A stretch of 64,000 nucleotides of DNA from Acidobacteriota bacterium (GTDB lineage: Bacteria; Acidobacteriota; Terriglobia; UBA7540), in assembly GCA_021838785.1 (NCBI GenBank), contig JAKCCV010000001.1, positions 1 to 64,000 on the forward strand, given 5' to 3'. The notes under the pieces were generated by a model that searched no databases, was not told the origin of the DNA, and saw only the letters and a program-made list of their open reading frames with translations. Shown here piece by piece: positions 56,206-61,170 of this stretch. Each line of letters opens with the position of its first letter. Position 1 is the first letter of the stretch. The position numbers and the translations under genes are program-made.

Positions 56206-57438
56206 TCAATGCGCTCTGAGCAGATGATGGAAAATGGTGAGGTAACGCTTGAGGTTGCTGGTCATCAAGAAATTCTCCCGCACGTGCTCGTGACCTTGCT
56301 CGCCCAGCTGGGCGGCGAGGGCTGGATTGGAAAGCAAGAAGCGGATCTGATAAGCGGCGCCTTCCACCGAATGCACCAACAATCCTGTGTGCTTGTGAAT
56401 GACTTGAATCGGAATGCCTCCGACGGCGGAAGCCACAACCGGTTTTTTCTTCCATAACGCTTCCGTCACCGTAAGGCCGAAGCCCTCGCGCAGGCTCTTT
56501 TGGATGATGACCGTGGAGGCGCGCTGCAGGGCGTTAATTTCAAGGGCGCTCCAAGGGGGCAGGTCGAGAATGTGAATGTCGGCGTCCGGCCCGGCAGCCT
56601 CGCGCACCTCAGCCAGCACAGCGCCGCCTTCGGGATCATCCGCGGCGCCCCCGCCGGCCAGCACCAACTGGCAATCAAAGTAATTTCGTACCAACCGATA
56701 GGCCTTCACCACCCCCAACGGATCTTTCAGTCGGTCGAAGCGTGAAATCTGAGTGAGAATCGGCCGGTCAGGGTCGATTCCAAAGCGCTCGATGACAGCG
56801 CGCACCTGGCTCGGGTCGAGGTCCTGATTCTTGGTCGAGAGAGGGTCAATGCAGGGGTAAGAAAGATATTGTGGGATCGGGAGCTGATGCGTAAAGGAGG
56901 GCGAAGAAAAAATCGCGCCGTCGTATCGGGTGACCAGGGGTTCCAGGAAATTCCAAACCAGCGGGTTGGGCTGGGAAAGATCAATGTGGCAACGCCAAAG
57001 CCAGCGTGCCCCGTGAGGGGGCCGCGCCGTAATGAGGGCCACCGGTTGAGGATCATGAATCACCACGAGGCTGGAGTCAAACGATAACCGGCGGCGATTC
57101 TGCTCGTTGTAACTCAAAAAAATCTCAAAGTTTTCGGGACGATTGTCATAGGGCCCACCGTGCAGCGCATTGTGAAAGGCCTTGGTGACCTCAAAAAAGT
57201 CGTTGCCTCCCGTGATGACGTCCCACCGGATGGGCAACCCAAGGTCTTGGAACATGGGGACCATGCAGTTGAGAATCTCCGCAACCCCGCCGCCGACGGC
57301 GGTGGAATTGACCATCTGAATCGTTTGCCCCGACAAACCGGAGGCCAGGGCGCGGAGTTCCTCGATTTCCGGCTCACCGACAACGGGGATGTAATCGTCC
57401 AGATGAATTACGCGCTGCGCGGAGGGGTCGGGGGCCAT
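56206..57438 (-). CDS. treT: TreT-like trehalose glycosyltransferring synthase (GT4)
   Basis: A 410-residue GT-B glycosyltransferase. The N-terminal half has VIHLDDYIPVVGEPEIEEL, VNSTAVGGGVAEILNCMVPMFQDLG (the loop typical of TreT) and a VIHDPQPVALI segment. The GT4 C-domain shows PILTQISRFDRLKDPLGVVKAY and SLREGFGLTVTEALWKKKPVVASAVGGIPIQV (EX7E and nucleotide binding). TreT joins NDP-glucose and glucose reversibly to trehalose. Finding it beside otsA and otsB gives two trehalose routes in one operon. AAGGAG lies five bases before the ATG, and the gene overlaps the DUF5752 gene by 31 bases. Trehalose phosphorylase-like activity is an alternative. Confidence 0.85.
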   Translation of the reverse strand: MAPDPSAQRVIHLDDYIPVVGEPEIEELRALASGLSGQTIQMVNSTAVGGGVAEILNCMVPMFQDLGLPIRWDVITGGNDFFEVTKAFHNALHGGPYDNRPENFEIFLSYNEQNRRRLSFDSSLVVIHDPQPVALITARPPHGARWLWRCHIDLSQPNPLVWNFLEPLVTRYDGAIFSSPSFTHQLPIPQYLSYPCIDPLSTKNQDLDPSQVRAVIERFGIDPDRPILTQISRFDRLKDPLGVVKAYRLVRNYFDCQLVLAGGGAADDPEGGAVLAEVREAAGPDADIHILDLPPWSALEINALQRASTVIIQKSLREGFGLTVTEALWKKKPVVASAVGGIPIQVIHKHTGLLVHSVEGAAYQIRFLLSNPALAAQLGEQGHEHVRENFLMTSNLKRYLTIFHHLLRAH

Positions 57439-58082
57439 GAAGCTCCTTGTTGAGCGATGAGTTCCAGCAATGTTTGTTTTACGTCATCCAGAGTCTGCGT
57501 ATAAATATCAATCCGGTTGCACTGGTCCGCCAGGGATTTGAGGCCCAGGCTTCCCTCCAGCCAAACGGAAAAATCGTTCGTGCGAAGGTGCAGCCGTAAG
57601 CGCGAAGCGATGAAGTGAAAATAAATGGAGGCTCGAGGGATACGCGCCAGCACCGAGGCAAATTCCTGAAGATTCGTCGCCACCAGCCCCAACGGTACGG
57701 CCACCTCAATCGCCTCGAGGAAATAGAACGGCTCGAAGGCGGGTGCTTCCGCACGCTGAGGGCGAGCCTCGCAGGCCTCACGAACCGCCTGGTAAAAGTC
57801 ACGGCGCAAATCGTTGAGCGAGACGTAATCCCGAATGTCAAAGGAGGCCAGCCGTTCGGCTAACTCGTAGTGGTTGCAGGCGGAGAGCACCCATTGCGCA
57901 AAATCATTGGAGTAACCTTCGGTCAGAAAATGGTGACGACGCAGGGTCTGAAAGGTGTGATAGAAGATCGAGGCATCGCTCGATTGCTCAAGCCCTGCCG
58001 CCAATTCGCACAAGTTGCGGGCGACGAGCGGACAAACTTGGGTAACGTAAGACGCCGTGGAAAAGCGAAAGGGTTCATTCAT
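57408..58082 (-). CDS. DUF5752-family protein of the trehalose operon
   Basis: A 224-residue helical protein beginning MNEPFRFSTASYVTQV, with HTFQTLRRHHFLTEGYSNDFAQWV, then FDIRDYVSLNDLRRDFYQAV and FIASRLRLHLRTNDFSVWLEGSLG. It corresponds to the DUF5752 family, whose members sit next to trehalose genes in several bacteria; no biochemical role is established. The two internal segments HHFLTEGYSNDFAQWV and RLHLRTNDFSVWLE look like repeats of one motif. The ATG at 58082 overlaps the otsB stop (ATGA), so it is coupled to otsB, and its end overlaps treT. Perhaps a regulator or scaffold. Confidence 0.75.
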   Translation of the reverse strand: MNEPFRFSTASYVTQVCPLVARNLCELAAGLEQSSDASIFYHTFQTLRRHHFLTEGYSNDFAQWVLSACNHYELAERLASFDIRDYVSLNDLRRDFYQAVREACEARPQRAEAPAFEPFYFLEAIEVAVPLGLVATNLQEFASVLARIPRASIYFHFIASRLRLHLRTNDFSVWLEGSLGLKSLADQCNRIDIYTQTLDDVKQTLLELIAQQGASWPPTPPRSA

Positions 58083-58888
58083 CCGAGAGCGCGCTCCATT
58101 TCTTTTAAGAAGCGTATAACTTCTGAGGGGTTGCGGGCAAGCCAACGCGCCCTCGTTCGACGAAAGCTTCCCACGCGCACGGTGATGCCCGAGGGTAGGG
58201 CGCGAAAGGCATCTTCATCCGTCGTATCATCACCCATATAAATGGTGAGCGAGCCGCGCGGGAACCGCGCCCGGAGTTTTTTGACCGCGGCTCCTTTGCC
58301 CCGGTTGAGGCGTGGCAGGACCTCCCAAATCTTCTTGCCTTCCATCACGCGAAGTTGCCGCTCGAAGGGCCGAAGCAACCGCTTCAATCGCCGGCGCGCC
58401 TGACGAATGGCCTCCCGCCGGGCGCCGCGAAAATGAAGGGAAAAGGCTTCACCCTTGTTTTCAAGGCGCAACCCGGGGATGACAAGAATCTCGCGCCGCA
58501 CGGCCCGACGCAATTGGGCCAGGGCTGTCCGCGAGGGCCCATCGAGGCGTGCCCCCGGCAACCCTTGCCATCCGTGCAAGCCGAGACAACGAACGTTCGG
58601 CAGCCCCACGCGGGCCTTCAAGTCCGCCAAAGTTCGCCCGCTGATGATGAAGAGCGCCACCCGGGGCTGGCGCGCAAGACGGCGTAGCAGGTTGCGCGCC
58701 GAAGGCGCAAGCCGAACCTGTTCCGGCCGCGGCCGCAACGGGGTCAACGTGCCGTCAAAATCAAGGAAAAGCAGCACCTCGGGCGCCCGGCGGATCCTTT
58801 CCAGAATGTCAGGCACGTGGCCTCGGAGCGGCTTGGCCCGATTCCGCGTTGGAAGTTCCCTGTCAGGCGCGGCGCTTGGATATTCCAT
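58079..58888 (-). CDS. otsB: Trehalose-6-phosphate phosphatase
   Basis: A HAD-superfamily phosphatase of 269 residues converting trehalose-6-phosphate to trehalose. The nucleophile motif is LLFLDFDGTLTPLRPRPEQV (D43, D45). Motif II is FIISGRTLADLKA, the substrate cap region has LGLHGWQ, and motif IV is IYMGDDTTDEDAFRALPSG (about residues 216-234). It follows otsA by nine bases and ends in an ATGA overlap with the DUF5752 gene. Length and motifs are complete. Confidence 0.95.
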   Translation of the reverse strand: MEYPSAAPDRELPTRNRAKPLRGHVPDILERIRRAPEVLLFLDFDGTLTPLRPRPEQVRLAPSARNLLRRLARQPRVALFIISGRTLADLKARVGLPNVRCLGLHGWQGLPGARLDGPSRTALAQLRRAVRREILVIPGLRLENKGEAFSLHFRGARREAIRQARRRLKRLLRPFERQLRVMEGKKIWEVLPRLNRGKGAAVKKLRARFPRGSLTIYMGDDTTDEDAFRALPSGITVRVGSFRRTRARWLARNPSEVIRFLKEMERALG

Positions 58889-58897
58889 TCGAGTTGT

Positions 58898-61156
58898 TTA
58901 GAGGGCGCCGACCGGCCGCGGCTCTTCCGTTCGAATTTCGGTTAACTCTGCAATCAAGTTCGCGGCCCAGCGATAGACATTGTGTTCGGCGACCACGCGG
59001 CGCATCGCTTGCATGCGAAGGGTTTCTTCTTCCGGCGTCATTTCCAAGGCGGCGCGAATCGCCTCCGCTAATTGCTCCGTGTCATACGGATTGACGATCA
59101 GGGCGTCGCGCAGTTCATACGCGGCGCCCGCGAACCGGCTCAGAATCAGAACGCCGCGCTCATCCTCGCGCGCCGCCACGAACTCCTTGGCCACAAGATT
59201 CATCCCGTCATGGAGCGCCGTGACCATGCAGAGGTTGGCGGCGCGGTAATACCGTGCCAGTTGCGCGTGCGAGTGGAGGGTCTGAAGGTAAACGATCGGC
59301 TTCCAGTGCGGCGTGGCAAATCGGGCGTTCACGCGGTCCGCTTCCGCTTTGACTTCGGCCAGCAGGTCGCGGTAGCGCTGGATGGTGGAGCGGCTGGGCG
59401 CGCCCACTTGGAGGAAGGTGAAGCGGCCCTGATAGTCCGGATATTTCTCAAGGAATCGCTCAACGGCGCGGAACCGTTCCGGAATGCCCTTGGTGTAATC
59501 CACGCGATCCACTCCCACACCCATCAGGACCGCATCCACTCCGTGCTCCTTAAGGAGGGCCACACGGTCCACGGGGGGCGGTTTCGTTCCCTCCGGCGGA
59601 GCGAGTTCGGCGGGATTCACGCTAATGGGAAAGCGGCGGACGTGCGTCCGATGGCCGCGACGATTCACCACGAAGCGATCCCAGTCAATGCGGGATTCGA
59701 GCGCTTGATCCACCGTCTCCAGGAAATGGTTGCAATGGGCCTGGATGTGAAAACCGATCAGGTCAGCACCCAGCAAGCCATCGAGCAACTCGCGTTGCCA
59801 GGGGCAGATGCCGAAGGCTTGGGGGTTCGGCCAAGGAATGTGCCAAAAGATGGCGACGCGGGCTTCGGGACGCTCCGTCTTAATCAGGCGGGGAAGCAAA
59901 GCAAAGTGATAGTCCTGCACCAAAACGACCGGTTCCTCCGTCCCCTCCATTTCTTCAAGGGCGGCCTCCGCGAATTTGCGGTTGACTGTCTGGTAGGCTT
60001 CCCAATCGGAAGCGCGAAAGATCGGTCGCATGTGGGCGATGTGGCACAACGGCCAAAGACCTTCGTTCGAGAAACCGTAATAATAGCCGGTCTCCTCTTC
60101 GGGGCTGAGAAAGACGCGCCGCAAGGTGTAATGAGGGTTGTCGGGTGGAACACGAAGGCGGTCGCCCGGCCCGACGGTCTCACGGTCGGCGTCGCCGGCT
60201 CCGTGGGCAATCCAAGTGCCCTCGCAAGCCAGCAAGACGGGCTCAAGCGCCGTGACCAAACCGCTCGCCGGCACGACCACCTGCACGCTTCGGCCATTCT
60301 TGATGTGAACATATGGCTCACGGTTGGAAACCACGAAGAGCGGCCTTTCCTGGAGCTTGCCTTTGACGTGGACGCGCAAGCGCTCAGGCGTCCATAAGGA
60401 TTCTGCCGATTCTCGCAGTTGCGCTTCCTTTTCCGCGGCGGCCCGCGCCGCCGCCAGCATGGCCGTCATGTGGCGAACTTCTTCGGCCAGCGGCTTGAAG
60501 AGATCGTCGTCAGGAAGCGGCGGCGCGGCGTGGGAACTACCGCGCCGCCATTGGCGCATCCACTGGGCCATGCGGGTGATGTTGCCGGTCAGCGCCCAAC
60601 GAATGACGAGGATCGTAATGAGGACGATAAAGAAAATCTCAACCACCAGCGTCCAGAAGGTTGTCCGCCAGATGCGCGCGATTTCTGCGTCAATGTAGCT
60701 GGCATCATAAAACATGCCCACCGCCCCGGTCACGGAAGGGCCACGATGCAAGGGCAAGGCGTAGAGGTAGAGCAGCGTGGGACCGACGTCAATGAATCGG
60801 CCGCGTCCGCCATTTTCGGAAATCGCGCGCGTCACAACGGAGGGAAGAAGTTTGAGAGCGCCGACAAGGCTCGGCGTGGCCGCCAGCTCCGTACCGAGGT
60901 CGTTATAAACGGCGATGCCGTAGAGGCTGTCGCGATTCTCCACCTGGCTCAAATAGTTGGCGAGGGCCGTCGGGTCGGGCGAACTCAGCAGCGCCTCGAC
61001 GTGGTCCTGTAGCGTCTCGCCGAGTGCCTGGGCACGGCCTTCCAATTCGTTCCGCAAAGCGCGCTTTTCAGCCTTCGCCTGGAAGAAGGCGAAAATCAGA
61101 GTGACCGTGACGGTCACCGCGACAAGCGCCAGAATCCATCGGAGCGCAACCCGCAT
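58898..61156 (-). CDS. otsA: Membrane-anchored sensor-fused trehalose-6-phosphate synthase
   Basis: A GT20 synthase (UDP- or NDP-glucose + glucose-6-phosphate to trehalose-6-phosphate) at residues about 271-745, preceded by an uncommon membrane module. TM1 spans residues 7-24, an extracytoplasmic domain of about 140 residues follows (with [21 protein letters not shown] and [12 protein letters not shown], as in Cache/CHASE-like sensors), TM2 is at 167-188, and a HAMP-like/coiled linker lies at 189-255. The catalytic part has [58 protein letters not shown] and [14 protein letters not shown]. Typical OtsA is about 470 residues. The TATAAT at 61165-61170 lies 8 bases before the ATG, so the message is likely leaderless. 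Confidence 0.93.
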
Positions 61157-61164
61157 CGTGCTTC

Positions 61165-61170
61165 ATTATA
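61165..61170 (-). promoter_or_regulatory. -10 element of the trehalose operon promoter
   Basis: A perfect TATAAT on the minus strand, with the first codon of otsA beginning 9 bases after its last base. A matching -35 is not evident at 16-19 bases, so an activator may be needed. Confidence 0.5.

Follow-up and report, generated by a model that had tools for sequence, protein, structure and literature searches.

The window analyzed here, a stretch of 64,000 nucleotides from an Acidobacteriota genome, contains a gene predicted to code for a trehalose-6-phosphate synthase fused to the sensory part of a transmembrane receptor, and the activity of this enzyme is likely to be set by an external cue through the connecting relay. 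The earlier note described an open reading frame (ORF) at this place with two transmembrane (TM) segments and an outer domain of about 140 residues; the frame lies exactly there, on the minus strand, and residues ∼26 to 166 stand between the two TMs. Hydropathy identifies exactly two strong TM segments, at residues ∼5 to 25 and 167 to 185, in 98 of 103 distinct homologous proteins, and a chance TM or composition artifact is rejected for this reason. A pseudogene or dead enzyme is also rejected, as both the frame and the active site are intact. Coordinates of the features are as follows.

Table 1. Features of the synthase gene and of the genes that follow it in the window
Feature	Positions	Strand	Basis and remarks
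−10-like box TATAAT, 8 nt upstream of ATG	61165..61170	(-)	Read in the sequence; TANNNT enriched in homologs
Whole gene: Cache-like sensor, TM, HAMP-like segment, GT20	58898..61156	(-)	752 aa, ATG start; ∼100 full-length homologs
TM1, residues 7-25	61082..61138	(-)	Hydropathy 2.5; kept in nearly all of 103 homologs
Predicted extracytoplasmic Cache/PDC-type sensor domain, residues ∼28-163	60668..61075	(-)	AlphaFold model, WalK match, sCache_3_2 in relatives
TM2, residues 167-185	60602..60658	(-)	Hydropathy, homologs
HAMP-like relay, residues 188-237 (P192, W199, R204, variable connector, PL 222-223, E226)	60446..60595	(-)	Alignment to kinase HAMP
Helical linker, residues 238-254, running on from HAMP helix 2	60395..60445	(-)	Consensus ARAAAEEEARLR; P222-W255 spacing
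Enzyme N-terminal helix WTPERL..., residues 255-270; fusion junction ∼254/255	60347..60394	(-)	Starts of soluble relatives; W255-N278 spacing
GT20 catalytic domain, residues 274-739	58940..60337	(-)	Pfam 401 bits; conserved active site
OtsB, trehalose-6-phosphate phosphatase	58079..58888	(-)	9 nt after synthase; TIGR00685 135 bits, cutoff 68; Pfam Trehalose_PPase
DUF5752 protein	57408..58082	(-)	ATGA overlap with OtsB; PF19027 189 bits
TreT-like GT4 trehalose synthase	56206..57438	(-)	Overlaps DUF5752; TreT_GT1 170 bits; NF041139 372 bits, cutoff 775

The segment between the two TM helices is predicted to have a Cache/PDC fold. An AlphaFold model of the N-terminal part, a monomer prediction built on a 50-sequence alignment, has a mean pLDDT of 84 (∼90 in the sensor and ∼62 to 68 in the HAMP connector) and runs from a long helix into a second one, then through a sheet of five strands and TM2 to a pair of helices with a loop between them. 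WalK ranks first when this model is compared with known structures (Foldseek, VIA-align 2); the crystal structure of the WalK Cache domain matches with a Z of 15.1 and 2.5 Å over 135 residues, and the integrative WalK model matches residues 1 to 270 with a Z of 15.7 at 6.2 Å, and so loosely. Sporulation kinase D, DctB, CitA, and DcuS also match the sensor model (Z of 12.7 to 13.8), and a 50-sequence profile has weak PDB matches to the outer Cache domain of WalK and to the HAMP domains of a chemoreceptor and of AF1503.

The search for Cache, CHASE, and HAMP domains proposed in the earlier note gives nothing over the Pfam cutoffs in the window protein, where the only Cache-type match is to CHASE8 (E of 0.13, 12.9 bits, cutoff 27) and HAMP (PF00672) has no match, but relatives do match, with sCache_3_2 in 10 of 50 (best 1e-8) and HAMP in 11 of 50 (best E of 2.9e-4). 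SMP_2 and other scattered weak Pfam matches in relatives are regarded as noise, to which a helix-TM-Cache layout gives rise. The HAMP form is present after TM2, as a helix with the conserved P192, a connector of 16 to 21 residues, and a second helix with the conserved E226. A HAMP-like linker is right in kind, by homology to kinases and by the model, although its sequence signal in the window protein is weak, and we use the term HAMP-like because a Pfam HAMP match is present in 11 of 50 relatives and not in the window protein.

The earlier comparison with chemoreceptors and histidine kinases, with an enzyme in place of their usual output, is borne out in detail, as the first 250 residues and the sensor-HAMP portion of genuine histidine kinases are homologous. 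In a search of 297 Acidobacteriota genomes with the N-terminal profile, ORFs of ∼490 to 540 aa (and one of 621) without GT20 match profile positions 1 to 250 with E values of 1e-20 to 1e-33. The two that were scanned with Pfam, L115 and L117, both contain HAMP (53.1 and 37.8 bits, respectively; cutoff 25), HisKA, and HATPase_c, and hhalign aligns window residues 1 to 268 with L117 at 98.8% probability, running through TM2 and HAMP. HisKA and HATPase_c are absent from the window protein by Pfam, and the sequence comparison shows that the kinase output is replaced in it by the enzyme; the putative HAMP assignment draws on the over-cutoff HAMP of the kinases at the same residues and on the predicted model. 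Histidine kinases with the sensor-HAMP module of the window protein are L113, L115, L116, L117, and L118, and an ORF of ∼450 aa lies directly after L117 and L118. Should the stimulus of these kinases come to light, it would be a clue to the signal of the window protein.

The receptor-type synthase is an old and widespread family and not a one-off. A homolog search used one genome per species, and nearly all of the 80 loci taken, the best of 570 passing stretches, align from residue 1 to ∼745 at 46 to 84% identity; the nearest named record among the matches listed is an Acidobacteria metagenome-assembled genome (84% identical). The survey of genomes suggested earlier finds the fusion in ∼100 relatives, which span at least 11 named phyla and keep both TMs and the whole N-terminal part. 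Among the matches listed, 39 loci are from Acidobacteriota, 13 from Elusimicrobiota, 5 each from Nitrospirota and Omnitrophota, and 4 from Bacteroidota, with one or two each from Methylomirabilota, Myxococcota, Edwardsbacteria, Daviesbacteria, Verrucomicrobiota, and Gemmatimonadota; most are metagenome-assembled genomes, and the single-locus phyla could be binning errors. Within the window's own phylum, the scope of these frequencies, ∼29 of 103 sampled GT20-bearing Acidobacteriota genomes have the receptor type, and ∼9 of the 103 have ORFs of 900 to 1,440 aa of a second, antiporter type.

In a maximum-likelihood tree of 69 GT20 domains, the receptor-type and antiporter-type enzymes and a few soluble ones form one clade (100/100), set apart from E. 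coli-like OtsA and from OtsA-OtsB fusions. Receptor types with recognizable and with divergent sensors cluster together at 86/71, and thus not firmly. The divergent fusions of this clade (L120, L121, L129, L130, and L132) have a strongly drifted sensor and relay, with some matching the N-terminal profile only up to TM2, and are a natural set for comparing relay designs. N-terminal extensions of 250 to 420 aa precede TM1 in L120 and L121 and the exchanger domain in L123 to L128, and probably reflect start codons that were chosen wrongly in GC-rich frames. Four members of the clade (L136, L139, L140, and L143) have no sensor, so that the sensor is not needed for catalysis.

The geometry of the relay, counted as spacings between landmark residues in ∼103 proteins, is constrained. 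The spacing is 12 from D151 to W163, 29 from W163 to P192 (via TM2 into HAMP helix 1), and 12 from P192 to R204, each in 102 of 102 proteins; it is 33 from P222 to W255 (HAMP helix 2 and the linker helix) in 100 of 103, and 23 from W255 to N278, into the enzyme, in all 103. In contrast, R6 to W163 in the sensor ranges from 146 to 174 and R204 to P222 in the HAMP connector from 16 to 21, and almost all indels fall within the sensor or the connector loop. Per column, conservation is 2.2 to 2.6 bits in the relay, 1.7 in the sensor, and 3.1 in the enzyme. Because a loose tether would tolerate linker indels, the fixed lengths favor a mechanical relay over a tether or anchor, and we regard them as the strongest, if indirect, argument for signal transfer. 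The HAMP/linker helix continues directly into the first helix of the enzyme, and the full-length model (mean pLDDT of 85.8) has both halves confident and a junction helix at residues 257 to 268. Soluble members of the clade start with M(I)W (MWTKQDL in L136, MIWDRQEL in L139, and MIWNKDSL in L140) and align with W255-T256, indicating that the receptor part was added right where a soluble synthase had its start codon.

Anchoring without signaling is the main rival to the receptor-enzyme reading, although we consider it unlikely; the N-terminal part would then only place the synthase, perhaps dimerizing it, for example beside OtsB. Such a role fits a sensor whose sequence diverges fast and in which the family alignment has few conserved polar residues and no standout ligand site, and this scarcity, the lack of a Pfam HAMP or Cache match over cutoff in the window protein, and the sensorless relatives are all counted against the receptor reading. 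An anchor, however, needs neither a folded Cache domain of ∼140 residues nor a HAMP-like segment, nor does it need the fixed relay lengths that are kept in ∼100 proteins from 11 phyla, and the sole variable part of the relay is the connector, as in true HAMPs.

The antiporter-type enzymes bear on both readings. In this sister clade (L119 and L122 to L128, from genomes G072, G216, G160, G224, G106, G337, G085, and G135), GT20 is located behind ten to twelve TM segments and begins ∼20 to 30 residues after the last of them. The four proteins scanned with Pfam (L122, L123, L125, and L127) match Na_H_Exchanger with 67 to 76 bits (cutoff 26); the membrane parts of L122 and L127 showed no ND or DD pair, and the membrane domain may be a sensor-like, non-transporting antiporter. 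The presence of two unrelated membrane modules on one enzyme clade suggests that membrane or envelope coupling matters for the clade, but it also keeps the anchor alternative alive, as a quite different domain ties the sister enzymes to the membrane and location there may be what matters. We tentatively propose, as a possibility, that the clade is one of membrane-coupled synthases, with a receptor type (Cache-HAMP-GT20) and an antiporter type (Na+/H+-exchanger-like-GT20) each putting protectant synthesis under direct extracellular or ionic control; if true, these would be the biosynthetic counterpart of osmosensing transporters.

In the receptor-enzyme reading that we favor, a Cache-type sensor outside the membrane would bind or feel an envelope or environmental cue, and TM1, TM2, and the HAMP-like coiled-coil relay would pass the change as a rigid helix movement into the first GT20 helix. 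Enzyme activity would thereby be altered, probably via the dimer arrangement, with no kinase, response regulator, or second messenger, and the trehalose 6-phosphate would pass to OtsB, the product of the next gene. Regulation of the synthase, its dimerization, and the direction of control are what we infer, and for the cue we can offer just the plausible guess of osmotic or drying stress.

HAMP relays are able to signal in both directions, and the GT20 enzymes of some species respond to ions. An inside-out or two-way device, with the state of the enzyme (trehalose 6-phosphate, UDP-glucose, or ionic strength) as input and an outer domain that meets an envelope partner or mainly sets the oligomeric state, can thus be envisaged, and bidirectional transmembrane signaling is reported for GacS (PMC12148439). 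We consider it improbable here, as no conserved envelope partner gene is seen beside the synthase among the homolog neighborhoods, in which the neighbors are trehalose genes.

The GT20 match (PF00982) spans profile positions 4 to 472 of 473 and far exceeds its cutoff of 32.5 bits, and this is the sole GT20 gene in a 3.4-Mb, 98% complete genome. Residues R279, G299, Y359, W368, D415, and H439 correspond to E. coli OtsA R9, G22, Y76, W85, D130, and H154, and R551, K556, R589, D650, and E658 correspond to R262, K267, R300, D361, and E369; their roles are presumably those known from OtsA structures, and all eleven are invariant in the 34 family members of the tree. The score to the OtsA equivalog TIGR02400 is 429.2 bits, below the cutoff of 564.85, and the glucosylglycerol-phosphate synthase model scores 297 bits. 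By these comparisons we place the enzyme in a distinct clade of GT20 trehalose-6-phosphate synthases, formally outside the OtsA equivalog. A GT20 enzyme with another product, such as glucosylglycerol phosphate, and hence no control of trehalose, would accord with scores that stay under the curated cutoff of every GT20 equivalog, also that of OtsA (429 of 565 bits), but is very improbable given that the OtsA model beats the glucosylglycerol-phosphate synthase model by 132 bits, that the glucose-6-phosphate contacts R9 and R300 (OtsA numbering) are conserved, and that OtsB is encoded by the next gene.

The synthase gene heads a tight operon with OtsB, DUF5752, and TreT genes, grouping two routes to trehalose in one transcription unit, and this context of trehalose genes supports trehalose as the product. 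Among the 76 homolog loci that extend 1 kb or more downstream, 48 have OtsB nearby, in 39 cases immediately downstream on the same strand, and OtsB, DUF5752, and TreT occur together in 26 of the 60 that extend 3.8 kb or more. DUF5752 adjoins TreT in ∼40 of 76 homolog loci, across phyla, and is probably a TreT partner or regulator. The TreT-like GT4 protein falls far under the Thermococcales TreT equivalog cutoff (372 of 775), and its donor or product may differ.

A start near residue 260, giving a soluble enzyme, had been named as what would overturn the long form; such a miscalled start, with translation from near residue 255 to 260, draws on the soluble GT20 relatives that begin exactly at the position of residue ∼255, but is practically excluded, as the long form is supported across ∼100 homologs by conserved amino acids, by the positions of the TMs, and by start signals. 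Homologs align from residue 1 and share the start M(R/K)hxhRhhhxL, and among 102 homologs, Shine-Dalgarno-like motifs peak 4 to 11 nt and TANNNT peaks 5 to 8 nt before the long-form start codon. A −10-like box 5 to 8 nt before the start codon is present in ∼20 of the 102 (including L003, L014, L017, L028, L084, L085, L092, and L094); this suggests that some family members transcribe the gene as a leaderless mRNA, and the mRNA of the window gene probably starts at or very near its start codon. The window TATAAT is absent from the output of a two-hexamer sigma-70 promoter scan, and we therefore limit the claim to a −10-like box.

The window protein resembles OtsA (CAZy GT20; E. coli OtsA; PDB 5jij and 6jbi) in its catalytic domain, the checked active-site residues, and OtsB in the operon, but the E. 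coli enzyme is soluble and has no sensor, and the window protein belongs to a separate GT20 clade (100/100). Its TM1, Cache-type sensor, TM2, and HAMP-like relay are homologous end to end with those of WalK and of the Acidobacteriota kinases L115 to L118; unlike sensor histidine kinases, it has a sugar-building enzyme as output and can do without a phosphorelay. Receptor and enzyme are also combined in one chain in transmembrane adenylate and diguanylate cyclases and in HAMP-PP2C phosphatases, but these yield a second messenger or changed phosphorylation, whereas the window protein yields the precursor of a bulk metabolite. The osmosensory transporters ProP, BetP, and OpuA, which join compatible-solute sensing and delivery in one protein, are a conceptual parallel only, as they import solute and share no homology with the window protein.

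Bacterial transmembrane receptors usually drive kinases, cyclases, phosphatases, or chemotaxis proteins, and we know of no characterized Cache-HAMP receptor that drives a biosynthetic enzyme of primary metabolism. No description of a Cache-HAMP-GT20 or antiporter-GT20 fusion was found in the open literature searched, and domain databases may already list the architecture. Geobacter sulfurreducens GSU2337 is described in a genome paper as having "a domain" like the mycobacterial enzyme, with an adjoining phosphatase gene, and may share the architecture, although the paper does not discuss the N-terminal part (PMC2700814). A 2005 census of bacterial signaling counted kinases, cyclases, and phosphodiesterases and states that it left enzymatic outputs of other kinds out of account (PMC1183210).

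If regulation of the synthase is confirmed, no path from an outside cue to a stress protectant could be shorter, and the synthase would also offer a clean assay for the working of a HAMP relay, read as sugar phosphate formed, and a ready part for engineered sensors. Soil and groundwater bacteria, which often meet drying and salt stress, commonly have the receptor-type synthase, and through it a signal from outside may turn on the making of a stress protectant directly.
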